DNA of 64,000 nucleotides from Candidatus Avichristensenella intestinipullorum (GTDB taxonomy: Bacteria; Bacillota; Clostridia; Christensenellales; Aristaeellaceae). The notes beneath the pieces were generated by a model. The model was given only the letters and a program-made list of their open reading frames with translations. It ran no database searches and had not been told where the DNA came from. Shown piece after piece: positions 33,532-45,222 of this stretch. The stretch lies in contig DVFI01000099.1 of the NCBI GenBank assembly GCA_018713305.1, forward strand, positions 1 through 64,000, in the 5' to 3' direction. Position 1 is the first letter of the stretch. The number at the start of each line of letters is the position of its first letter. Made by a program: the position numbers and the translations under genes.

Positions 33532-34818
33532 TCAGCCGTTGCCCCAGACGGCCGAAAGGGTGCAGTTGTACAGCTCGATAAATTCTCCGCCCGACAGGTC
33601 CACCAGAACCGGATCATCCCAGACGTACAGGGGGGTGGCCGTGTCCTCCCAGGCGGTTTCTCCGGCATATCCGGCGTCTTCCAGGAAGCTGGTAATGCGG
33701 TAATACCCCTCCTCTGCGTCCGGGGCCAGGGTAATGGTATAGTAGCACTCGTCGTTGTCCACAATCTGCACGCCATACAGCAGCCGCCGCACGCCGCTCA
33801 GCGTCCACTGCGACTCGCCCTCCGGCGTCACAGGCTCTGCCTGCAGGGGGGCCATTTGGCCGCCGCTGAGCGTGACGTGGGCGTGTTCCGGCAGATACAC
33901 GGCATAGTCCGCGCCCGCAGGCAGCGCGAACGTGCGCTCGAACGTCTCCGCCCGGATGTCCAGCGTCGCCTCCGCATCGCCGGACGCGACGGTATACAGG
34001 CCCGCCGCGAGCGTCTCGCCCACGACATAGGCGCCCGCGCCCACAGGCTGCGCTTCCGGCAGGAGCATGTCCCGCAGCAGGAACGTCGCCTCAATCGTCT
34101 CTTCCGGCACAAAGCCGCTGTACACCTCCAGGTGAATGGGCCGCACCTGCCGCCATGCGCCCTCGTCGGACAGCAGTTCCACCTGCCGGCCGCCCTCGTA
34201 GACGACCTGCGCGCCGGGCGCGGGCTGGTCGTACACCGCCTCTTCGCCCTCCTTCAGGGCGGCATAGCCCAGCGCGGGCAGGCCCATCAGCGCGTTTTGC
34301 AGGATGTCTCCGGTCTCCTCCGCCGCGTCGGCCCGTACATACCCGAACATGTCATGCGCCAGGCGCACATGCAGCCAGCCGTCCGGCGTCTCGCCCATCA
34401 CGCCCACCCGCATCCCGGCCAGGCAGTCCTGCAGAGGCGCTCCGTCCGGCCTATCGTAAAGCTTCGTATCTTCCAACAAGCGCGCGACGGGCATTTCCGA
34501 GCGGATATAGGCCACCGTCGCGGAATTGTTCGTCATATCCATCTGCGAAATCAGCATATACCCTTCGCGGTTGTCGGTTTGCCAGCCGCCGATGGACACG
34601 TTGGCCCAGTCCCCCGCGGTGCCCAGGATGTCCAGCGACGTGCCGGTATAGTATTCGCCCAGGATGTCCGCCTGGCTGTGCGGCTCGGCGTACAGCGCCG
34701 CGCGCTCGCCCTCCGGAACGGAGACGACCGGTACTTCCAGCACGGCGAAAGCCGGCACTGCATACAGCGTCAGCGCCAGCGCGAGCGCCAGAGCCCCCAG
34801 TTTCGTTTTGTTTCGCAT
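33532..34818 (-). CDS. Secreted SH3-like repeat protein (paralogue B)
   Basis: The 428-residue protein has a signal peptide (about 1-25, ending AFA). Three SH3-like bacterial segments follow, each with the pattern AxLYxxPxSxxxxLG or similar (ERAALYAEPHSQADILGEYY, WANVSIGGWQTDNREGYML, GWLHVRLAHDMFGYV). The second half carries a GxYVVGETLAAGLYTV domain, a beta-rich region, and the end SAVWGNG. The same architecture and the same 428-residue length occur in the upstream paralogue. SH3-like domains usually bind cell-wall peptides; no enzyme domain is present. ATG 34818 follows AAAAGGAGGCAGGAAACG. Confidence 0.78.
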   Translation of the reverse strand: MRNKTKLGALALALALTLYAVPAFAVLEVPVVSVPEGERAALYAEPHSQADILGEYYTGTSLDILGTAGDWANVSIGGWQTDNREGYMLISQMDMTNNSATVAYIRSEMPVARLLEDTKLYDRPDGAPLQDCLAGMRVGVMGETPDGWLHVRLAHDMFGYVRADAAEETGDILQNALMGLPALGYAALKEGEEAVYDQPAPGAQVVYEGGRQVELLSDEGAWRQVRPIHLEVYSGFVPEETIEATFLLRDMLLPEAQPVGAGAYVVGETLAAGLYTVASGDAEATLDIRAETFERTFALPAGADYAVYLPEHAHVTLSGGQMAPLQAEPVTPEGESQWTLSGVRRLLYGVQIVDNDECYYTITLAPDAEEGYYRITSFLEDAGYAGETAWEDTATPLYVWDDPVLVDLSGGEFIELYNCTLSAVWGNG

Positions 34819-34874
34819 CGTTTCCTGCCTCCTTTTCTTTTTTGTTCCGATTACGCTTTCCCGTCTCTTTCCGG

Positions 34875-36161
34875 TCAGCCGTTTCCCAGCACCGCCTCTA
34901 TCCGCAGGTTCTGAAACTCCAGCAGATAGCCCGGCAGCAGGTTGGACAGCGTATGCGTCTGGCCCGGCTGCAGGTACACCGCCTCCGGCTCCTGCGCCAC
35001 GCCCGCGTCCGCGTCCAGGGTGGTCAGGCGATAGTATCCTCCCTGCGCGCCTTCCCGCAGCGTCAGGTTCAGCGTCCGGGTCTGTTCGCCCTGCGTCTGC
35101 CAGCCGCACAGGAACCGACCGCTGCCTTCATACGCCCACCCGCTCTCTTGGCTAATCATGCTTTGGGCCGTCAGCGGCGCCAGCACGCCCGCCCCTTCGA
35201 CGCGCACGCTCGCCCCTTCCGGCAGGTACAGCGCCAGCAGCGCCTCGCCCTGCGCTGCGTAAGCGCGCGAAAACGCGCCCTCCGCGCCTTCCACGCGGAT
35301 TCCCCCCTGCTCGCCCGCGGGCACCGTCAACCCGTACAGGCCCGGAGGCAGCGCGTCGCCCGCCGTATACGTCCCCTCGCCCAGGCTTACCGCATCCGTG
35401 ACGGTCATCTCTTCCAGCCAGTATATCCGCGCTCCCTGGGCGGGGATAAAGCCCTGGCATGCGCCGCTGTACACGCGCGCCTGCAGCCAGCCGTCGGCCA
35501 GCGCCAGCACTTCCACGGGCACGCCCGCATCAATGGGCCTCACCTGCTCGGCGTCCGTGCGCGGCGCGGCGTACAGCGCGGCGCTTTCCCCTTCTGCCAG
35601 CGCCAGCGTCGCGTACCCCTGCTCGGGAATGCCTTCCTCCTTCTTGTGCCAGAGCGAACTGAAAATCCCCGTTTTCTCCAGGCAGTCGTCCGCCATCAGT
35701 CCCGACTGCCCGGCGACGGTCACATGCACATACCCGTTTTCCAGCACGCCCATCGCCTCGGCCAGCGTGCCGGCCGGATAGGTTTCCACCGGCTGCCCGC
35801 CGGGGCCGTCCAGCAGCTCCGCCGCCTCCGTCAGGCGCAGCACCGGCACGTTGGGCACGCCGTCAAAGCTGTTATCGGCCATGTCCAGCGTCCTTGTCGG
35901 CATCCATCCGCACATTCCCTCGCCCAGGTCCACCTGCGCCCAATCGCCCTGCAAATCCTCTATCGTCACTTCCACGGCGCTGAAATAGACGCCCAGGACG
36001 TCTCCGTCCTCCGACGGCGCGGCGTACAGCGTCACCTGTCCCCCGTCCTGCGAACTGGTAAAGGCCAGCATGGGCAGACCGAAGGCCATCGCGGCGCCCG
36101 GCATCCATGCCGCCAGGACCAATGCCGCCAGCAGAACAGCGCCCGCTCGTGTATGTTTCAT
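34875..36161 (-). CDS. Secreted SH3-like repeat protein (paralogue A)
   Basis: The 428-residue protein begins with a signal peptide ending AMA. SH3-like segments (VTLYAAPSEDGDVLGVYF, DWAQVDLGEGMCGWMP, SAALYAAPRTDAEQV) precede a GxYTAGDALPPGLYGLTV domain and the terminal EAVLGNG, as in paralogue B. The two genes are 56 bp apart in one direction, a clear tandem duplication that has diverged well. The ATG at 36161 is preferred to 36182 because GAGGAG lies nine bases before it. An extracellular wall-associated role is inferred. Confidence 0.78.
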   Translation of the reverse strand: MKHTRAGAVLLAALVLAAWMPGAAMAFGLPMLAFTSSQDGGQVTLYAAPSEDGDVLGVYFSAVEVTIEDLQGDWAQVDLGEGMCGWMPTRTLDMADNSFDGVPNVPVLRLTEAAELLDGPGGQPVETYPAGTLAEAMGVLENGYVHVTVAGQSGLMADDCLEKTGIFSSLWHKKEEGIPEQGYATLALAEGESAALYAAPRTDAEQVRPIDAGVPVEVLALADGWLQARVYSGACQGFIPAQGARIYWLEEMTVTDAVSLGEGTYTAGDALPPGLYGLTVPAGEQGGIRVEGAEGAFSRAYAAQGEALLALYLPEGASVRVEGAGVLAPLTAQSMISQESGWAYEGSGRFLCGWQTQGEQTRTLNLTLREGAQGGYYRLTTLDADAGVAQEPEAVYLQPGQTHTLSNLLPGYLLEFQNLRIEAVLGNG

Positions 36162-36360
36162 CCTATCCATCTCCTCAACCATGTATGCTATATTCCTAAA
36201 GACGGAAAACCCTGGAGATTAGTTCCATCTCCCCTCCAACATCCGGCTTTTTATCCGACGGCCCGCGTTCGGCTTCCGTGCGCGCGGCACGCTCCCGCAT
36301 CGCGGAAAACGCACGGCAAGATGAACAAAAAAGGAAAAAATTAAAATATTTCAAAATATA

Positions 36361-36389
36361 TTGACAAAAAATGAAACGCGCCCTATACT
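36361..36389 (+). promoter_or_regulatory. Sigma-A promoter for the carbohydrate operon
   Basis: TTGACA, 17 bases, TATACT, with an AT-rich run of about 30 bases directly upstream (an UP-like element) and AAAGGAG before the first ATG. This is the best-looking promoter of the second half of the window. Confidence 0.85.
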
Positions 36390-36410
36390 GTCAGCAAAGG
36401 AGATGAAGAA

Positions 36411-37355
36411 ATGCATTATGCTGCCCGGTTGAACAGCTTTATATCCCCCGCCTCGCACGGCGTGCTGGAGGCCCTCGCGCGCATCGGCGCGATCGAAGGG
36501 GTCACGCACGTGGATTTGAACTATCCGGAACACTTTGAAACGGTGAGCGTGCCACAGATGCGGAAAGCGCTGGAGAAACACGGGCTGAAAATGAATGCGT
36601 TGAACATGCGGTTTAAGCGCCCGTTTTTGCGCGGCGCGTACGCCAATCCCTCGGCCGAAATCCGCCGGGAGGCGGAGGCGCTGACGGAAAAAGCCGCGCA
36701 GGTCTGCAGGGACATGGGCGGGGATTTGATTATCATATGGCTTGCCTATGACGGATACGATTACGCCATGCAAATGGATTATCCGCAAGCCTGGAATCAG
36801 CTCGTGCAGACGCTCTGCACCCTCTGCCGGGACCGCCGGCTGCGGTTTGCCATTGAATACAAGCCCTATGAAGAGCGGGGCTTTTCCCTGCTGGACAGCT
36901 ACGGCACCACCTCCTGCCTCATCCGGGAAACCGGCGCGCAGAACCTGGGGATGGTGCTGGATTTCTGCCACATGCTGATGAAAAAGGAAAACCCGGCCTT
37001 TGCCGCGTCGCTGCTATTGTCGCAGGGCAAGCTGTACGGCGTGCATCTCAACGACGGCGAAGGCCACTGCGACAACGGCTTTATGGTGGGCATGTGCCAC
37101 CCCTGGAAGACGCTGGAGCTGCTGTACTATCTGAAAAAGCACGCATATGAGGGCGTGGTATATTTCGATACTTTTCCCGTGCGGGAGAGCGCCGAGGACG
37201 AACTGGCGGCGAATATCGCGATGTTTGAACAGCTCTGGGCGCTGTTGGACGCCTCCGCCATGCAGGCCATTGCGCAGGCGTCGGCCAACCAGGACGGCAT
37301 GGCCGTACAGCGGATTTTCAGAGACTTCCTGGCCAACGGAGCGTGGCGAAGATGA
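36411..37355 (+). CDS. Sugar isomerase/epimerase-like TIM-barrel protein
   Basis: The 314-residue protein has the xylose isomerase-like TIM barrel fold. Metal-site strands are visible as FAIEYKPYEERG (Glu), MVLDFCHMLMKKENP (Asp and His), VHLNDGEGHCDNGFMVG (His, Asn, Asp) and VYFDTFP. The motifs recall bacterial L-rhamnose-type isomerases more than classical xylose isomerase. It is first in an operon with ribokinase, DeoR, ABC transporter and nucleoside-hydrolase genes, so it may isomerise the imported sugar. Its stop overlaps the kinase start. Confidence 0.78.
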   Translation: MHYAARLNSFISPASHGVLEALARIGAIEGVTHVDLNYPEHFETVSVPQMRKALEKHGLKMNALNMRFKRPFLRGAYANPSAEIRREAEALTEKAAQVCRDMGGDLIIIWLAYDGYDYAMQMDYPQAWNQLVQTLCTLCRDRRLRFAIEYKPYEERGFSLLDSYGTTSCLIRETGAQNLGMVLDFCHMLMKKENPAFAASLLLSQGKLYGVHLNDGEGHCDNGFMVGMCHPWKTLELLYYLKKHAYEGVVYFDTFPVRESAEDELAANIAMFEQLWALLDASAMQAIAQASANQDGMAVQRIFRDFLANGAWRR

Positions 37356-38266
37356 CAGAGGCGAAGCGGGTGGTCGTGGTAGGCAGCCTGAACTATGACA
37401 TTCTCCTGGGCCAGACGCGCCTGCCTTCGCGCGGCGAAACGCTGCACTGCCGGCAGGCGGCGACCGCGAGCGGCGGCAAGGGCGCCAACCAGGCCGTGCA
37501 GGCCGCCAAGCTCGGCGCCACCGTCTACCTGGTCGGCGCGGTAGGGCAGGACGCCCTGGGCGACGCGCTTCTGGCCTCCTGCCGGAGCTACGGCGTGCAT
37601 ACGGACTTTGTCCGGCGTTCCGAAGGCGCAAGCGGTCTGGGCGTCGTTCAATGCCTGCCCGACGGCTCCGTCTACGCGACCGTTGCCGAAGGGGCCAACG
37701 GGTCCGTCACGCCGGACCGGGTGCGGGAAGCGGAAACGTGCCTCGCGCAGGCCGACGCCATCCTCCTGCAATTTGAAATTCCCATGGAGACCAACGCCTT
37801 TGTCATGGCGTACGCCCGGCAAAAGGGGATTCCGGTGCTGCTGAATCCCTCGCCGGCCAAGGCGGAAGGACGCCCGCTGCTGGCCGCGGCCTCCTGCCTG
37901 ATTCTCAACGAACAGGAGGCCTCGTTCTTCTGCGGAGAGGCCCTCTGCGACGCGGCCTCCGTGGCAAAACACCGCCGGGCATTGCAGGCGCTCAACGCAA
38001 GGCGTATGATTGTAACGCTGGGAGCGCAGGGAAGCGTGCTGGTCGAGCCCGACGGAGTATGCCATATCCGGCCGACCGGTCTTGCCCGCGTGGTGGAAAC
38101 CACGGGCGCCGGCGACAGCTACGCGGGCGCTTACGCGGTTCGGCGGTTGATGGGAGACGAGCCGGCGGCGGCCTGCCGGTACGCCTGCCGCGCGGCGGAG
38201 TACACCATAGGACAAGCGGGCGCGCAGAACGCCATGCCAACCCGGCAAAACATGGAAGGGGCGTAA
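37352..38266 (+). CDS. Ribokinase-like PfkB-family sugar kinase
   Basis: The 304-residue PfkB-fold kinase starts VVVVGSLNYDILLG and has the substrate motif ASGGKGANQAVQAAKLG typical of ribokinase, and the signature VVETTGAGDSYAGAYA with catalytic Asp. It most likely phosphorylates ribose or a related pentose with ATP. ATG 37352 overlaps the previous stop. With nucleoside hydrolases downstream, ribose from ribosides would become ribose 5-phosphate. Specificity is not proven by sequence alone. Confidence 0.88.
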   Translation: MTEAKRVVVVGSLNYDILLGQTRLPSRGETLHCRQAATASGGKGANQAVQAAKLGATVYLVGAVGQDALGDALLASCRSYGVHTDFVRRSEGASGLGVVQCLPDGSVYATVAEGANGSVTPDRVREAETCLAQADAILLQFEIPMETNAFVMAYARQKGIPVLLNPSPAKAEGRPLLAAASCLILNEQEASFFCGEALCDAASVAKHRRALQALNARRMIVTLGAQGSVLVEPDGVCHIRPTGLARVVETTGAGDSYAGAYAVRRLMGDEPAAACRYACRAAEYTIGQAGAQNAMPTRQNMEGA

Positions 38267-38269
38267 AGC

Positions 38270-38998
38270 ATGATACCGTACATCAGAAGGCAAAAGATTC
38301 TGGACTACATGGACGGCAAGGACGTGGTCTATCTCAAGGACATCGCGGCGTTTCTTTCCCGCTCCGTCTCCACCGTCCGGCGCGATTTGGTCGGCCTGGA
38401 AAAGGAGGGCCTGGTCAAGCTGCTCAACGGAGGAGCCGCCACGCTGCAAAGCCGCAGCTACGACCTGCCCGTGGAAAAAAAGCGGCAGACCAACATCGAG
38501 GCCAAGGAAATCATCGCCCGCAAGGCGGCGGAGCTGGTGGAAAACGGGGACGTGATTTATATCGACTCCGGAACGACCACGGTGATGATGATGAAATACC
38601 TCAAGAACAAGAAGCTGACCATCGTCACCTCCAGCCTCACGTTCCCGCGCGAGCATCTGACGCCGGATATCAAGCTGATTTATCTGGGCGGCGAGCTGCT
38701 GGCCGACCTGGAATCCCTGGTCGGTTCCATTACAGAAAAGCAGCTGCTGTCCATGTACTTTGACAAGGCGTTTGTCGGCGCAAACGGCTACGGCGAGCAG
38801 GGCGTGTTCACCTATGACCTGCGCGAGGCGCGCAAAAAGGAAATCGTCAAGGAACAGTCGCGCATCGTATACCTGCTGGCCGATACCTCCAAGGAAAACA
38901 AACGAAGCTTCGCAAGGGCCTTCGGGCTGGATGCGTGCGTCCTCATCACGGAAAAGGACGCCGGTCAGGAAGCGGAATCTGATACGCCCCAAGGATGA
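38270..38998 (+). CDS. DeoR-family transcriptional regulator
   Basis: The 242-residue regulator has an N-terminal winged HTH (RRQKILDYMDGKDVVYLKDIA, SRSVSTVRRDLVGLEKEGLV) and a DeoR C-terminal sensor with GDVIYIDSGTTTVMMMKYL, which binds a sugar phosphate. It lies inside the operon three bases after the kinase stop and is likely its local repressor, derepressed by a phosphorylated sugar such as ribose or deoxyribose 5-phosphate. I did not find a repeated operator near the promoter by eye. Confidence 0.93.
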   Translation: MIPYIRRQKILDYMDGKDVVYLKDIAAFLSRSVSTVRRDLVGLEKEGLVKLLNGGAATLQSRSYDLPVEKKRQTNIEAKEIIARKAAELVENGDVIYIDSGTTTVMMMKYLKNKKLTIVTSSLTFPREHLTPDIKLIYLGGELLADLESLVGSITEKQLLSMYFDKAFVGANGYGEQGVFTYDLREARKKEIVKEQSRIVYLLADTSKENKRSFARAFGLDACVLITEKDAGQEAESDTPQG

Positions 38999-39108
38999 GC
39001 GCTCCCTGGGGGCTATGAGATTCACGATAGACGCCATGCAAGGAGGAGGGATCAAAAACACCCGTCTGACGACGTTACGCCCCGAGTAGTGTATAAGGAG
39101 GTTTTGGA

Positions 39109-40413
39109 ATGAAACGGAGAATCCTCGCGTTTGCCGTGATGGCGGTTATGCTGTGCTGCGGCAGCGTCTTTGCCGTGGCGGAAGAATCCGTCCAATCGCG
39201 CACGATTACCCTGCTGACCCATGCTTCTCTGGATACGCCCAGCGAGCTTTCCGGCGTCATCGGCGGCCTTGCCGAAGAATACAAGGCGCTCCATCCGGAG
39301 TTTAACCTGGAGTATGAAATCGTACCGCTGACCAACCTGGTCGGCAAGGTAAAAACGCTGGTCGCGACGGAGAGCCTGCCGGATATCATACTCTATGAGC
39401 CGGGCATCCCGCTGGTCGAGCTGGTGGAAACGGGCAAGCTGGTCAACCTGGAAGAAGAGCTGGTGAAGATGGGCGTTTGGGACTATGTGGACCCGCAGGT
39501 TGCCGACCTGCTCAAGTCCATGTCCGTCGGCCTCGACGAGCCGCTGTACGGCCTGCCGGGCGGCCAGCACATCGAAGGCATTTTCTATAACAAGCAAATC
39601 TTTGAAGCGCACCAGCTGGAAGTCCCCAAGACGCTGGACGAGCTGCTGGCCGTATGTGAAACGCTCCGCGCCGCCAACATCGATCCCTTCCTGTTCGGCG
39701 GCAAGGACAAATGGCACAGCACGCGCCTGATTTCCAACCTGGCCAACCGCATCATGGGCTACACCGCCACCGCGGACGCCAGCGACGGCAAGCGTTCCTT
39801 CCTGGACGAGGGCTTTGTGCAGGCCTGCACCATTGCGCAGGAAATGGGCGTGAACGGCTATATGGGCATCGGGTTCAATTCGGTCGAGTTCAACACGGCC
39901 GTGGAAACGTTCCTCAACGGCGGCTGCGCCATGCTGTATACCGGCACCTTCTCCGTGGGCAACATGAACGATCCGGAGCTGTGCGCCATCGGCGCCGAGA
40001 ACATCGGCTTCTTCAGCTTCCCGACGGTCGAGGGCGGCCTGGGCAGCGACAAGGACTATGTCGCCCATGCCGGCCAGGTGCTCGTGGCCTCCAAGGCCAC
40101 CTATGACGAAGCCGTAGCCGACTTCATCAAGTACATCGTGACCCATGCCGGCAATTACTCCATGGAGAACTATCAGTGGCTGATGGGCTATGCCTATGAC
40201 CCGGTGGAGGATTTGCCCCCGGTGACCCAGCTCGTGCTGGAAGCCAAGGACGGAGCGGAAAACCTGATGCTGTGGTGGGAAACGCGCATGGATTCCAAGA
40301 CCACGGATGTGGCCAAGGACAACGCGCAGCTGATGCTGGCCGGCGAAATGGACCCGGTGACGTACCTGCAGATGATTCAGGATTCCACCGACGAATACCT
40401 CGGCGGCAAATAG
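39109..40413 (+). CDS. ABC sugar-type extracellular binding protein
   Basis: The 434-residue family 1 (CUT1-type) solute-binding protein has a signal region MKRRILAFAVMAVMLCCGS and a cluster FAVAEES, a possible signal peptidase I site; the Cys pair lacks a typical lipobox, unusual for a Gram-positive binding protein. The mature part has LYEPGIPLVELVETGKL and IEGIFYNKQIFEAHQLEVPKTLDELLAVCETL, the normal CUT1 fold. It carries the operon's substrate to the two permeases downstream. GGAGG lies seven bases before ATG. A strong hairpin follows. Confidence 0.92.
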   Translation: MKRRILAFAVMAVMLCCGSVFAVAEESVQSRTITLLTHASLDTPSELSGVIGGLAEEYKALHPEFNLEYEIVPLTNLVGKVKTLVATESLPDIILYEPGIPLVELVETGKLVNLEEELVKMGVWDYVDPQVADLLKSMSVGLDEPLYGLPGGQHIEGIFYNKQIFEAHQLEVPKTLDELLAVCETLRAANIDPFLFGGKDKWHSTRLISNLANRIMGYTATADASDGKRSFLDEGFVQACTIAQEMGVNGYMGIGFNSVEFNTAVETFLNGGCAMLYTGTFSVGNMNDPELCAIGAENIGFFSFPTVEGGLGSDKDYVAHAGQVLVASKATYDEAVADFIKYIVTHAGNYSMENYQWLMGYAYDPVEDLPPVTQLVLEAKDGAENLMLWWETRMDSKTTDVAKDNAQLMLAGEMDPVTYLQMIQDSTDEYLGGK

Positions 40414-40424
40414 ACCGCCAATTT

Positions 40425-40448
40425 CCGGGAGGGCTGCCGCCCTCCCGG
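40425..40448 (+). promoter_or_regulatory. Intercistronic hairpin after the binding-protein gene
   Basis: A perfect 10-bp stem CCGGGAGGGC/GCCCTCCCGG with TGCC loop starts 12 bases after the stop and has no T-run. Such hairpins after binding-protein genes (as after malE) stabilise the upstream mRNA so the binding protein outnumbers the permeases. Confidence 0.65.
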
Positions 40449-40474
40449 GCCAAAGAGCAAAAGGGGGCTCCGCC

Positions 40475-41365
40475 ATGAATACCCTGCTGTCCGACAAAAA
40501 AGCCGTCTGGGTTTTTATGCTGCCGTCACTGCTTCTGGTGATTGGCATGATGTATATTCCGATTGGCTGGACATTGGGATACTCTCTGTTCGACGGGTTT
40601 CCGGGCTTTGGCTCAACCTTCGTGGGCTTTCGCAATTACCTGGACCTGTGGTCCGACGCCGTATTCCGTCAGAGCTTTGTGACCACGCTTGTGTACACGC
40701 TCGTTCAGGTCGTCGGACAGGTGGGGCTCGGCCTGTGCCTGGCGCTGCTGTTGAAGATGGGCGTAAAACGGCACAAGGACTTTATGAAAACCCTGATTTT
40801 CTTCCCCAGCGTCATTCCGGCCATTGCCGTCGCGCAGCTGTTTATCAAAGTCTACGAGGTGCGGCCGCAATACGGGCTGCTGAACAGCCTGCTGGCGCTT
40901 GTGGGCCGCTCCGACCTGATTCGGGGCTGGCTGGGTGAAACGTCCACGGCGCTATGGTGCCTGTGCGTGGCGGACATCTGGCGCTTTATGGGCTTTTATG
41001 CGGTGCTGTTCTACGCCGCGATGATAGAGATTCCCGAGGACATTGTGGAAGCCGCCAGGATAGACGGCGTAAATGCGCGCCAGATGATTCGGCATATTTT
41101 CCTGCCGCTGGTGTTCCCGGTCATCATTACCGCGACCTCCTACTGCTTTATCGGCACCATCAAGGTGTTCGAAATGCCCTATGTCATGACAAACGGCGGG
41201 CCTGGCTATGCAACGACGCTGATGAGCCTGTATATCTACAGCACCGCGTTTACCTACAGCCAGTACGGCTTTGGCAGCGCGATGGCGGTTGTGCTGCTGA
41301 TAGAAACCGTTCTCATCACCATGCTTATCCGTTCCGTCCCCAATCTTGCCAAACGCTGGCGCTGA
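40475..41365 (+). CDS. ABC transporter permease, MalF-type
   Basis: The 296-residue CUT1 permease has six transmembrane segments and the ATPase-contact EAA motif EAARIDGVNARQMIRHIFLP followed by the C-terminal helices. It begins LLSDKKAVWVFMLPSLLLV, typical of the MalF/UgpA partner. It pairs with the next permease. SD AGGGGG precedes the ATG. Confidence 0.93.
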   Translation: MNTLLSDKKAVWVFMLPSLLLVIGMMYIPIGWTLGYSLFDGFPGFGSTFVGFRNYLDLWSDAVFRQSFVTTLVYTLVQVVGQVGLGLCLALLLKMGVKRHKDFMKTLIFFPSVIPAIAVAQLFIKVYEVRPQYGLLNSLLALVGRSDLIRGWLGETSTALWCLCVADIWRFMGFYAVLFYAAMIEIPEDIVEAARIDGVNARQMIRHIFLPLVFPVIITATSYCFIGTIKVFEMPYVMTNGGPGYATTLMSLYIYSTAFTYSQYGFGSAMAVVLLIETVLITMLIRSVPNLAKRWR

Positions 41366-41439
41366 CATTCTGCCGACAGGCGCGAAAGGAGCAGAGGACG
41401 GCTGCCGGCCCCGGCAGGCCTTCCCGCAGGAGCAGTATC

Positions 41440-42279
41440 ATGAAATCACGCCGTATCCGCATCAGCAGCATCGTTCTGAAGGTTTTCCTTGCCGTGCTGA
41501 TTGTCGTGGAGATATATCCCATTTTCTGGATTCTTACCTCCTCCCTGAAAACCCAGTCCGAGTTTGTGACCCAGCCTTCCTATACGCTGCCGTCCTCCTT
41601 TCAGTACGAAAACTATGTGGACGCCTGGACCGCCGGCAAAATGGGCGTCTATTTCAAAAATACCATCATCACCACGGCGGGCGCGCTGCTGCTGACCATC
41701 GCCGTCGCGCTGCCTGCGGGATTCGCCATCACGTTCATGCGCTGGAAGCTGAAAAACGCGGCGCTGACCTTTATTATCACCGGCATGATGATCCCCGTGC
41801 AGGCCACGCTGATTCCCATTTTTCTGGTGTACAAGGAGCTGGGGCTCATCAATACGCTGACGGGGCTGACCCTGGTGTACGCGGCGACCAATGTCCCGCT
41901 GGCCGTCTTTCTCCTGTCTACTTATATGAAGCAGTTCCCCATGGAGCTGGTGGAGGCGGCCATCGTGGACGGGTGCGGCATTTATCAGACCTTCGCGCGC
42001 ATCATCGTCCCGGTTTCAACCAATCTCATTGTTGCCGTTTTGACGCTGGAATTTTTCTACAGCTGGAACGATTTGATGTTTTCCATGACGTTTAACAGCA
42101 AGGCGGACTTGAAAACCATTCAAACGGGCCTGCTGAGCTTTGTGGGGCAATACGGCCAGCGCCAGTGGGGACCCACGTTCGCCTCCATCGCCATCAGCGT
42201 CATCCCCACGGCCATTTTGTACATGATGCTGAGCAAAATGGTGATTACCGGCATGACCGCCGGCGCCATTAAGGGCTGA
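41440..42279 (+). CDS. ABC transporter permease, MalG-type
   Basis: The 279-residue CUT1 permease has the EAA motif EAAIVDGCGIYQTFARIIVP and a C terminus ending GMTAGAIKG, the usual MalG-type end. ATG 41440 follows CAGGAGCAGTATC; the ORF track extends far upstream through the first permease in another frame. A short CTGCCG/CGGCAG hairpin lies between the two permease genes. No ATP-binding protein is encoded in the operon, so a housekeeping ATPase of the MsmX type must energise the transporter. Confidence 0.92.
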   Translation: MKSRRIRISSIVLKVFLAVLIVVEIYPIFWILTSSLKTQSEFVTQPSYTLPSSFQYENYVDAWTAGKMGVYFKNTIITTAGALLLTIAVALPAGFAITFMRWKLKNAALTFIITGMMIPVQATLIPIFLVYKELGLINTLTGLTLVYAATNVPLAVFLLSTYMKQFPMELVEAAIVDGCGIYQTFARIIVPVSTNLIVAVLTLEFFYSWNDLMFSMTFNSKADLKTIQTGLLSFVGQYGQRQWGPTFASIAISVIPTAILYMMLSKMVITGMTAGAIKG

Positions 42280-42325
42280 ACAACCAAACCGGCGCACGCG
42301 CGCCGAGGCAGGAGGCACAAAGCGC

Positions 42326-43267
42326 ATGGAACCCATCAAAACCATCCTGGATACCGACATCGGCGGCGATGTGGACGACGCCGCCGCAGTCGCCATGATG
42401 AACGTCTGGGCGCAGGAAGGGCGCGTGGAGCCGCTGGCGATGATTGTCTGCATCTCCAGCCGCTGGAGCGCGGGCGCCGTGGACGCCATCAACCGCTATT
42501 TCGACCACCCCGATATCCCCGTGGGAACGAATCGCCGTTCCCGGGTGCTGGACCAGGAGCTGGCAAAAACGTATACCCGGTATCTCGCCGAACACTACGA
42601 GAACCGGTATCGGTCCGTCGATGCGGAGGACGCGGTCAGCGTTTACCGCCGCGTGCTGGCCGCCCAGCCGGACGGCAGCGTGCAGATTGTCAGCATCGGC
42701 ATGCTGAGCACCGTGGCGCAGCTGCTGCAATCCGGGCCGGACCTGTACTCCCCGCTGGAAGGCAGGGAACTGGTCAGGCAGAAGGTGTCCCGTCTGGTGT
42801 CCATGGCCGGCAACTTTATCCCCTATTACAGCCAGGCCGACTGGTATACCATCGACGTGGAATGGAACATCGACATGGACGTGCCTTCGGCGCAGTATGT
42901 TGCCAGGCACTGGCCGGTGGACATGATTTGGAGCGGCTTTGAAACCGGCGGGGGCGTCATGACGGGAAAACGGCTTATCGAAACCGCGCCGCCGGAGCAC
43001 CCCGTGCGGGAAGCCTACCGGCGCTTTACCAACGGCGTGGACCGCATCAGCTGCGATTTGGCCACGCTGCACTATGCGATTCTCGGCACGCCCGAATACT
43101 GGGCGCTCTCCGAGCGCGGCGCCGTCGTGCTCGACGCGCAGGGGCGCACGACGCTGGATACCCGGGCCCCCGCAAAAAACCACCGGTATCTTATCAAAAA
43201 AGTACCCGACCAGGTCATCAAGGAGGAAGTCGACACCATCATGAACGTGCTTCCTCTGCGCTATTGA
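42326..43267 (+). CDS. Nucleoside hydrolase 1
   Basis: The 313-residue protein is of the inosine-uridine nucleoside hydrolase fold, splitting N-glycosidic bonds of ribosides. The N-terminal metal motif is DTDIGGDVDDAAAV with all four acidic residues. It also has SIGMLSTVAQLLQS and KVSRLVSMAGNF, corresponding to the ligand-binding block, and a C-terminal YAILGTPEYW. It follows the permeases by 46 bp with AGGAGG. In this operon it most plausibly acts on the imported riboside in the cytosol, releasing base and ribose for the kinase. Confidence 0.85.
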   Translation: MEPIKTILDTDIGGDVDDAAAVAMMNVWAQEGRVEPLAMIVCISSRWSAGAVDAINRYFDHPDIPVGTNRRSRVLDQELAKTYTRYLAEHYENRYRSVDAEDAVSVYRRVLAAQPDGSVQIVSIGMLSTVAQLLQSGPDLYSPLEGRELVRQKVSRLVSMAGNFIPYYSQADWYTIDVEWNIDMDVPSAQYVARHWPVDMIWSGFETGGGVMTGKRLIETAPPEHPVREAYRRFTNGVDRISCDLATLHYAILGTPEYWALSERGAVVLDAQGRTTLDTRAPAKNHRYLIKKVPDQVIKEEVDTIMNVLPLRY

Positions 43268-43285
43268 GAAAAGAGGGATGCGCTG

Positions 43286-44227
43286 ATGGATACAAACCGC
43301 GTCATTCTGGACACCGATGTGGGGAGCGACGTAAGCGACCTGGCGGCAGTTTTTCTGTACTGGCAGTGCGCGAAAAAAGGATACCTGCATCCCCAGGGCG
43401 TGCTGATGAACACGGGAAACGAGCAGGGGCCCGCATGCCTGGCGCTGGCCGAGCAGTACGTCCGCGGGCAGCAGACGCCCATCGGCGCGCTGGGCACGTC
43501 GTTTCTTAACTATTCCATGCATTGGAAGTACACCCGCTACCTGCTGGAAGCGTTCCCCCTGCCCCAGCCGCCGCAGCTTCTGCCCTATGTGCCCTGCTTC
43601 CGCAAGGCGTTGGCCGACGCGCCGGACCAAAGCGTCACCATCGTCTGCAACGGGCCCCTGCGCGGCCTGGCGCAGCTCCTGCGCTCCGGCCCGGACGCCT
43701 ATGCGGACGTGGACGGCTGCCGGCTGGTCGCCCGGAAGGTCAGGCGGCTCATCCTGTCCAGCGGCCGCTTCCGGCTGGACCCCCAGCCCGTCTATCCGCG
43801 CCGCAGCGGGTGGGACGTATGGAGCTATACGGACACGTCCATGTACATCGACTGGGACGTCCCCTCGGCCCGCATCGTGGACGACGAATGGCCGACGCCC
43901 ATCGTCTGGGTCGGCTGCGAGGTTGGCTATCTGCATCTGTCGGGCCGGACCTTCTGCGAGCAGACCGCCGACGACCATCCGCTCCGCCTCGCATACCGCC
44001 ATTTCACCAAGGGCGGCGCGCACATTTCGGGTCCGCAGCTGGCCGTGCTGTGCGCCCTGCCCGCGTACAGCGCGCGCATCCTTCTCTCCCCGCCGGGACG
44101 CGTGCTGATGAACGACGAGGGCCTCACGGAGTTTTTCCCGTATGCCGGCGGACGCGACCGGCATGTATCGGCGCAAACGCCGGAGGCCGTCTTCCGGCAA
44201 ATCGACGACCTGCTCCTTGCGCGCTGA
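43286..44227 (+). CDS. Nucleoside hydrolase-like protein 2, altered metal motif
   Basis: The 313-residue protein has the same length and fold as its upstream neighbour, 18 bp away, but with low similarity. The metal motif reads DTDVGSDVSDLAAV: the first Asp of the usual DD pair is Ser. Conserved features kept include VCNGPLRGLAQLLRSGPDAYADV and WVGCEVGYLHLSG. The substitution could reduce or alter nucleoside hydrolysis, or the protein may handle another N-glycoside or serve as a partner subunit. It is the last gene of the operon, closed by a strong terminator. Confidence 0.75.
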   Translation: MDTNRVILDTDVGSDVSDLAAVFLYWQCAKKGYLHPQGVLMNTGNEQGPACLALAEQYVRGQQTPIGALGTSFLNYSMHWKYTRYLLEAFPLPQPPQLLPYVPCFRKALADAPDQSVTIVCNGPLRGLAQLLRSGPDAYADVDGCRLVARKVRRLILSSGRFRLDPQPVYPRRSGWDVWSYTDTSMYIDWDVPSARIVDDEWPTPIVWVGCEVGYLHLSGRTFCEQTADDHPLRLAYRHFTKGGAHISGPQLAVLCALPAYSARILLSPPGRVLMNDEGLTEFFPYAGGRDRHVSAQTPEAVFRQIDDLLLAR

Positions 44228-44267
44228 ACGCGGCCGCCGGGGGCAGACCGCCGAAACGCCCTTCCCC

Positions 44268-44300
44268 GCTTTCACGCCCGCCGGTGTGAAAGCTTTTTTT
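44268..44300 (+). terminator. Rho-independent terminator of the carbohydrate operon
   Basis: An 8-bp stem GCTTTCAC/GTGAAAGC with a 10-base loop is followed directly by seven T, 41 bases after the last stop. Confidence 0.9.
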
Positions 44301-44463: not shown

Positions 44464-45222
44464 ATGAAGCGTCTCTTCGTGGTGTTCCTTTTGCTTTGCC
44501 TGACGCTTACCACATCGGCCCTTGCCGCCGGCAGCTATGTCCCCGGCGATTTTCGGGGCGCGACCGACGCACAGATTGCCACGAACGTGGCGGTGGTGGT
44601 GACGCGCAACGTCACGCTGCGCAGTCTGGCGTCCTACGACGGCCAACGCCTTGCCAGCATCCCCGGCGAAACGGTATTGGAGGTGCTCTCCCAGTCCAGC
44701 GACGGCCGCTGGCTGCAGGTCGCCTATTACAAAGACGGCACGCGCCTGACCGGCTGGGTCCTGACCGAATACGTCGTGCAGAATCCCATGACGTTGATTC
44801 TGCGCGCCGACAACGTGCCGGCCTACGCGGCGCCCTCCAGCCAGGCCAAGAAGGTCGGCTCGCTCCCCGCCTATACGCGCCTGACCGTTATCGGCGAGTG
44901 GGACGATTACTATGTGGTCAGCCTGCGCAACGCCGCGGCCTGCATCCGCAAGGACGCGCGCTACTGGACGGACTGGGACTTGCTGCACTATGAGCAGAGC
45001 GGCCAGCGCCTGACGCTGTACACGCTGGGCAGCACCGTCCTGCGCACCGGTCCCGGCACGGACTGGGCCAGCGCGGAGCGCGTGACGGCGGGCACGACGC
45101 TGGAAGCCCTTTCGGCGTATCAGGAAAACGGTTGGTACGTCGTGCGCTTCGGGGACGGCGACCTCGCCTATGTCAACGCCTCGGACGTACAGGTTGTCGG
45201 CGGCGACGGCGCCGTGGGCTGA
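44464..45222 (+). CDS. Secreted triple SH3-like protein
   Basis: The 252-residue protein has a signal peptide ending ALAA. Three SH3-like segments follow: NVTLRSLASYDGQRLASIP with WVLTEYV, NVPAYAAPSSQAKKVGSLP, and STVLRTGPGTDWASAERV with YVNASDVQVV. It probably binds the wall or stays extracellular; no enzyme domain is present. ATG follows GGAGGAGGGGAAAAT. It is followed by the second copy of the composite 3'-end element, which acts as terminator. No convincing promoter was found between the tandem terminators and the start. Confidence 0.8.
   Translation: MKRLFVVFLLLCLTLTTSALAAGSYVPGDFRGATDAQIATNVAVVVTRNVTLRSLASYDGQRLASIPGETVLEVLSQSSDGRWLQVAYYKDGTRLTGWVLTEYVVQNPMTLILRADNVPAYAAPSSQAKKVGSLPAYTRLTVIGEWDDYYVVSLRNAAACIRKDARYWTDWDLLHYEQSGQRLTLYTLGSTVLRTGPGTDWASAERVTAGTTLEALSAYQENGWYVVRFGDGDLAYVNASDVQVVGGDGAVG

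Follow-up and report, generated by a model that had tools for sequence, protein, structure and literature searches.

An operon of Candidatus Avichristensenella intestinipullorum combining an ATPase-less CUT1 importer with a ribokinase-like kinase and two IUNH-fold proteins, one intact and one degenerate

Gene content and boundaries of the operon

The window analyzed here (the whole stretch of 64,000 nucleotides of contig DVFI01000099.1) contains eight open reading frames between positions 36361 and 44300 that all lie close together and co-directionally on the + strand. Open reading frames and Pfam matches agree on the order of isomerase, kinase, DeoR regulator, CUT1 binding protein, two permeases, and two IUNH-fold proteins, which is the order and place given by an earlier sequence-only reading of this DNA. 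Its proposal that a strong promoter and a strong terminator bracket these genes is likewise borne out, so that the locus comprises the following features:

36361..36389, + strand: promoter TTGACA-17-TATACT, 11 of 12 consensus positions, first start codon about 20 nt downstream
36411..37355, + strand: xylose-isomerase-like TIM-barrel isomerase, 314 aa; PF01261 (AP_endonuc_2), 78.9 bits
37352..38266, + strand: PfkB ribokinase-like kinase; PfkB Pfam family and TIGR02152 (ribokinase), 250.6 bits
38270..38998, + strand: DeoR-family regulator, 242 aa; PF00455 (DeoRC) and PF08220 (HTH_DeoR)
39109..40413, + strand: CUT1 solute-binding protein, 434 aa, with a signal peptide as read from the sequence; PF01547 (SBP_bac_1), 81.5 bits
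40475..41365, + strand: CUT1 permease 1, UgpA/GlcT-like; PF00528 (BPD_transp_1)
41440..42279, + strand: CUT1 permease 2, UgpE/GlcU-like; PF00528 (BPD_transp_1)
42326..43267, + strand: NH1, IUNH-fold hydrolase with intact active-site set; PF01156 (IU_nuc_hydro), 53.5 bits (gathering cut-off 34.2)
43286..44227, + strand: NH2, degenerate IUNH-fold protein and probable paralog of NH1; PF01156, 19.8 bits, below the gathering cut-off of 34.2
44268..44300, + strand: intrinsic terminator, stem of 11 pairs at 44268-44293 followed by seven T

The sites at 36361-36389 and 44268-44293 are the strongest promoter-type and terminator-type sites of the region, and we give weight to these two only, because weak sites of either kind are about as frequent in shuffled sequence. 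All eight genes show the codon-position GC typical of coding genes, and most are preceded by a ribosome-binding-like sequence. The isomerase stop and the kinase start overlap as ATGA (37352-37355), with ATG at 37352 as the probable kinase start and GTG at 37343 as another possible one. Neither Pfam nor reading of the open frames revealed an ATPase gene among the eight, and Pfam found no glycoside hydrolase among them; searches of the window yielded no Rfam family, tRNA, or cre-like site, and no convincing candidate for a DeoR operator. On both sides, the operon is flanked by secreted SH3-like repeat proteins that resemble each other (33532-36182 and 44464-45222) and that, judged by sequence, appear unrelated to it.

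The isomerase has 3ktc as its nearest solved chain (E 6e-42) and mostly retains the metal-site positions of xylose isomerases. We rejected it as a xylose isomerase proper, given a score of only 59.6 bits against the XylA equivalog cut-off of 447 bits. The nearest solved chains of the kinase are ribokinases, and it retains the aligned ribokinase motifs NxD, GGKGANQ, QxE, and AGD while scoring below the cut-off of the ribokinase equivalog TIGR02152 (250.6 versus 299.65 bits).

The CUT1 importer and its candidate ATPase

The closest PDB relatives of the binding protein are oligosaccharide-binding proteins, with 4g68 as the nearest chain (E 5e-31). The nearest relatives of the transporter in other genomes (33-38% for the binding protein and 42-48% for the permeases) have MGH1-like glycoside hydrolases, glycerol-1-phosphate-dehydrogenase-like and glycerol-kinase-like proteins, or a GH127-like protein as neighbors. 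The transporter thus fits small glycosides in general rather than ribosides specifically, and the binding protein alone is no pointer to ribosides. Two of the loci with transporter orthologs (L192 and L193 in genomes G638 and G649) carry genes for an MGH1-like hydrolase and for the glycerol-1-phosphate-dehydrogenase-like and glycerol-kinase-like proteins and are likely glycosyl-glycerol catabolic operons. In another genome of the family (G014, contig 40; L194:683-1606), a different IUNH protein with 71.3 bits, above the Pfam cut-off, is encoded near a transporter ortholog and adjoins genes resembling a rhamnose-type pathway.

As expected for importers that depend on MsmX, the operon encodes a binding protein and two permeases with the cognate ATPase gene absent. 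The genome holds three MalK-type ATPases with an OB_MalK domain (C56, C69, and C150). C69 and C150 each lie beside their own CUT1 permeases, and C56 (G000 contig 56) is an orphan among unrelated genes. C56 scores 494.8 bits with the NCBIfam UgpC model, above its cut-off of 432, and aligns with MsmX of Bacillus subtilis (6yir) at E 6e-143. It has all four of the residues D77, R104, E110, and K154, which are reported to be conserved in multitask ATPases and have been probed by mutation in MsmX (PMC7658222), whereas C69 has N, K, E, and Q at these positions (1 of 4 kept) and C150 has G, D, A, and R (none kept). Since the full multitask signature is found in C56 and is mostly missing from C69 and C150, the earlier suggestion that an MsmX-type ATPase encoded elsewhere serves this CUT1 system is well supported by sequence, with C56 as the predicted energizing subunit. 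This assignment is a direct and testable prediction.

The two IUNH-fold proteins

NH1 has the complete IUNH motif set of Asp cluster, E-x-N, and C-terminal Asp, retaining D11, D15, D17, D18, E179, N181, and D244. The E-x-N motif aligns with EFN of E. coli RihA, and the Asp equivalence to the Crithidia enzyme is drawn from the motif at a place where two residues are inserted in the NH1 clade. At the active-site positions examined in comparison with 19 relatives, NH1 keeps every invariant residue except for a Trp replaced by Cys. Its AlphaFold2 model (pLDDT 92.7) adopts the IUNH fold, and the PDB matches listed for it are IUNH-family proteins. NH1 lacks a signal peptide, and we read it as a putative calcium-dependent, IUNH-type riboside hydrolase. 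Some relatives in its clade are encoded near CUT1 permease genes, with a GH43-like protein in two loci, so activity in this clade may extend beyond nucleosides.

The second protein, NH2, has Ser17 in place of Asp, Tyr187 in place of Asn, and Gly249-Pro250 in place of Trp-Asp, and the Glu of the E-x-N motif is absent (alignments place either Asp or Ser there). All 19 relatives share the same residue at each altered position, so that four to five invariant residues are gone, and catalytic as well as ribose-contact residues are affected (Ser17, Tyr187, Pro250, and the lost Glu); D11, D15, and D18 are retained. The claim of one intact and one altered hydrolase therefore stands. The NH2 gene remains open over its full length, begins with a start codon preceded by a ribosome-binding-like site, and has a GC3 of 0.86, typical of coding sequence. 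The AlphaFold2 model of NH2 (pLDDT 88.6) has the IUNH fold; the PDB matches listed for it are IUNH-family proteins, with a probability of 1.00 and a TM of about 0.7, and the rebuilt substrate loop around residues 161-190 is the part modeled with the lowest confidence.

A maximum-likelihood tree groups NH1 and NH2 with a support of 90/90 and gives NH2 the longest end branch (1.98, compared to 0.76 for NH1), a length at which the tree program warns that placement is unsure. This grouping and the loss of invariant residues suggest that NH2 is probably a tandem duplicate and sister paralog of NH1 that has lost catalysis; the duplication itself is well supported by the sequences, and NH2 is probably non-catalytic. 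Searches of 200 family genomes and of one congener turned up no close NH2 ortholog, and the gene may be decaying. In phmmer searches of the PDB neither NH1 nor NH2 found a match (the family profile did), and scans of genome contigs found no relatives of either protein, nor any of NH2 in viral contigs.

Gene context, proposed function, and known systems

The closest relatives of the isomerase (36-40% identity) are found in four genomes of the same family. In the complete locus of G014 (L101), the isomerase is encoded with a CUT2 ribose-type binding protein, ATPase, and permease, a ribokinase, and a DeoR regulator, and there is no hydrolase; the locus of G058 (L100) has the isomerase, CUT2 genes, and a ribokinase, with the contig ending inside the kinase. 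G104 combines the isomerase with a ribokinase, an unrelated CUT1 system, and a DeoR regulator before its contig ends. In G049 (contig 126; L103:6279-14163), the isomerase is joined by a CUT1 system, a DeoR regulator, an ADP-ribosylglycohydrolase (PF03747), a different PfkB kinase, and a 180-aa protein that matches no Pfam family. The ADP-ribosylglycohydrolase family likewise cuts N-ribosyl bonds, and two of the five core operons carry a hydrolase of an N-ribosyl-cleaving family, the folds of the two being unrelated. Recurrence in other genera indicates that isomerase, kinase, and DeoR regulator form a module in which transporter and hydrolase are exchangeable. Isomerase relatives scoring below about 220 bits belong to other isomerase subfamilies with different neighbors and were set aside.

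Relatives of NH1 occur in similar company. A different genus of the family (G039, contig 163; L045:8014-16773) encodes CUT1 permeases, a divergent IUNH-like protein that lacks the C-terminal Asp motif, a ribokinase-like kinase, a URO-D-like protein, and a nucleoside hydrolase sharing 39% identity with NH1; none of these genes encodes an ATPase. The nucleoside hydrolase gene of G039 is flanked by two further proteins, one of them URO-D-like, and this operon may possibly serve a methylated or otherwise unusual riboside. On the Parabacteroides distasonis plasmid NZ_OY725755.1 (L196:5338-9867), genes for a ribokinase, an ADP-ribosylglycohydrolase, a nucleoside hydrolase with 36.5% identity to NH1, and a GRP sugar transporter lie in a row. 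These contexts, which join an NH1 relative or the isomerase to ribokinases and N-ribosyl hydrolases, support the sequence-only reading where it held that the enzymes suit ribosides. In the comparison of gene neighborhoods, the contexts in G049, G039, and Parabacteroides speak for ribosides, but the transporter relatives lie beside ordinary glycoside hydrolases.

With a ribosidase-type hydrolase, a ribokinase-type kinase, a transporter, and a regulator, the operon contains the genes typical of riboside or ribose scavenging. We therefore favor, from genomic context, a riboside as the substrate and propose that the operon, under DeoR control, scavenges a small riboside-like compound. This compound would be taken up by the CUT1 importer with energy from C56 as a shared MsmX-like ATPase. 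Inside the cell, NH1 would use calcium to cleave the glycosidic bond and release a pentose, most likely D-ribose, which the ribokinase-like kinase would phosphorylate for entry into the pentose phosphate pathway. The isomerase might act on the aldose/ketose form or on a second pentose from the same compounds, and NH2 could be a catalytically dead duplicate kept as a partner subunit of NH1 that alters assembly or specificity. We infer the substrate, the sugar, the order of steps, the use of calcium, and the partnership of NH2, and we hold this model as a whole tentatively, at somewhat less than an even chance. More specifically, it seems doubtful, though worth considering, that NH1 and NH2 form an active/inactive heteromer in which a pseudo-hydrolase that arose by tandem duplication turns its active twin toward a new riboside, brought in through CUT1 with the shared ATPase.

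The weak point of reading the sugar as D-ribose is the isomerase, which it leaves unexplained because D-ribose needs no isomerization before ribokinase, and this is the best reason to take a non-ribose pentoside as the main rival. From such a pentoside, probably an O- or N-furanoside, NH1 would free a pentose that the isomerase converts into a ketose for phosphorylation by the kinase. The constant presence of the isomerase in the core across genera would fit well, as would its company with the kinase in CUT2 versions where only free sugar would enter. It also speaks against the riboside model that the complete CUT2 version in G014 has no hydrolase, so that the core there works on a free sugar and may have nothing to do with ribosides. 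The pairing of transporter relatives with O-glycosidases and the CUT1 permeases and GH43-like proteins near NH relatives point the same way, but the kinase has kept its ribokinase motifs for ribose, and the contexts with ADP-ribosylglycohydrolase or with nucleoside hydrolase and ribokinase indicate ribose, so that we consider this rival rather unlikely. Even less probable is an ordinary oligosaccharide operon that imports a short glycan through CUT1 and has the IUNH-fold proteins as ancillary members. It would agree with the PDB relatives of the binding protein and with the MGH1-like and GH127-like hydrolases beside transporter orthologs; however, the operon has no glycoside hydrolase, and CUT1-type importers also carry small amino-sugar compounds, as FrlONM does (PMC12632257).

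For NH2, there is a real if minority chance that it is a functionless, decaying duplicate and that NH1 works alone, which would be compatible with any substrate. Its lost invariant residues, long branch, and lack of close orthologs in the 200 family genomes and the congener would be expected from decay, but the full-length frame with ribosome-binding-like site and coding-type GC3, the intact predicted fold, and the similar pairing of a nucleoside hydrolase with a divergent IUNH-like protein in the CUT1/ribokinase operon of G039, a separate genus, argue against it. Very unlikely, in our view, is a changed catalytic chemistry of NH2 on a related substrate that does without the calcium site. Retention of D11, D15, and D18 and the rebuilt substrate-loop region (with its low model confidence) could hint at it, yet the equivalents of IUNH calcium-ligand and ribose-contact residues were lost together, and no relative with the same residue set was found in the same genomes.

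Compared to known systems, our preferred model of riboside scavenging resembles the B. subtilis frl system (FrlONM/FrlP/MsmX), in which a small glycated amino compound enters through a type I (CUT1-like) importer that works with a shared ATPase; FrlONM imports fructosevaline and can use MsmX (PMC12632257). Unlike frl, the operon described here has a hydrolase of IUNH fold, no ATPase gene at all, and no FrlB-type deglycase gene, and its identity as a fructosamine operon was rejected on the last of these points. The kinase of the frl operon is a PfkB family member like the one found here.

Among the Bacteroidetes, the rus locus of B. thetaiotaomicron (around BT2804) serves the scavenging of ribose and nucleosides. 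It is similar to our operon, as is the Parabacteroides cassette, in combining an NH1-related nucleoside hydrolase with a ribokinase and a sugar transporter; the cassette adds the ADP-ribosylglycohydrolase and resembles Bacteroidetes ribose scavenging. In contrast to these loci, the present operon has a CUT1 ABC importer instead of TonB/SusD or GRP transporters, a DeoR regulator, a xylose-isomerase-like isomerase, an NH1 that lacks a signal peptide, and a second hydrolase that is degenerate. The rihC-rbsK ribonucleoside regulons of Bifidobacterium (RbsR2/RbsR3) similarly unite hydrolase, ribokinase, and transporter under one sugar regulator, but this regulator is of the LacI family and the transporters are others, and the parts of the source available to us mention neither an isomerase nor a second degenerate hydrolase (PMC4746261). 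Our observations would widen the range of ribose or riboside scavenging, in this bacterial family, to CUT1 importers that lack an ATPase of their own. The isomerase, kinase, and DeoR genes make up a modular core that is combined with different transporters and hydrolases.

Open-licence papers yielded none on a nucleoside hydrolase together with CUT1, a pseudoenzyme, or polysaccharide utilization with ribokinase, and no description of the exact gene set, in particular of an active/degenerate IUNH pair beside an ATPase-less CUT1 system. The earlier impression of an undescribed combination is thus upheld for the exact set but must be qualified, as scavenging loci with nucleoside hydrolase and ribokinase are known and another CUT1 operon containing a ribokinase and two IUNH proteins exists in the same family, in G039. 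A precedent for the pair comes from Arabidopsis, where the IUNH paralogs URH1 and URH2 have been proposed to form a heteromer with altered specificity (PMC3147060). That system differs in being from a plant and, in the portion of the source available, in showing no active-site loss in URH2, and the partnership of NH1 and NH2 is predicted from genes; should NH2 prove to be a pseudoenzyme partner, the pair would provide a tractable bacterial parallel to the nucleosidase heteromers proposed in plants. While each part of the operon belongs to a known family and sets of hydrolase, ribokinase, and transporter are already known (PMC4746261; rus), the pair of active and degenerate hydrolases is its unusual and most interesting feature.
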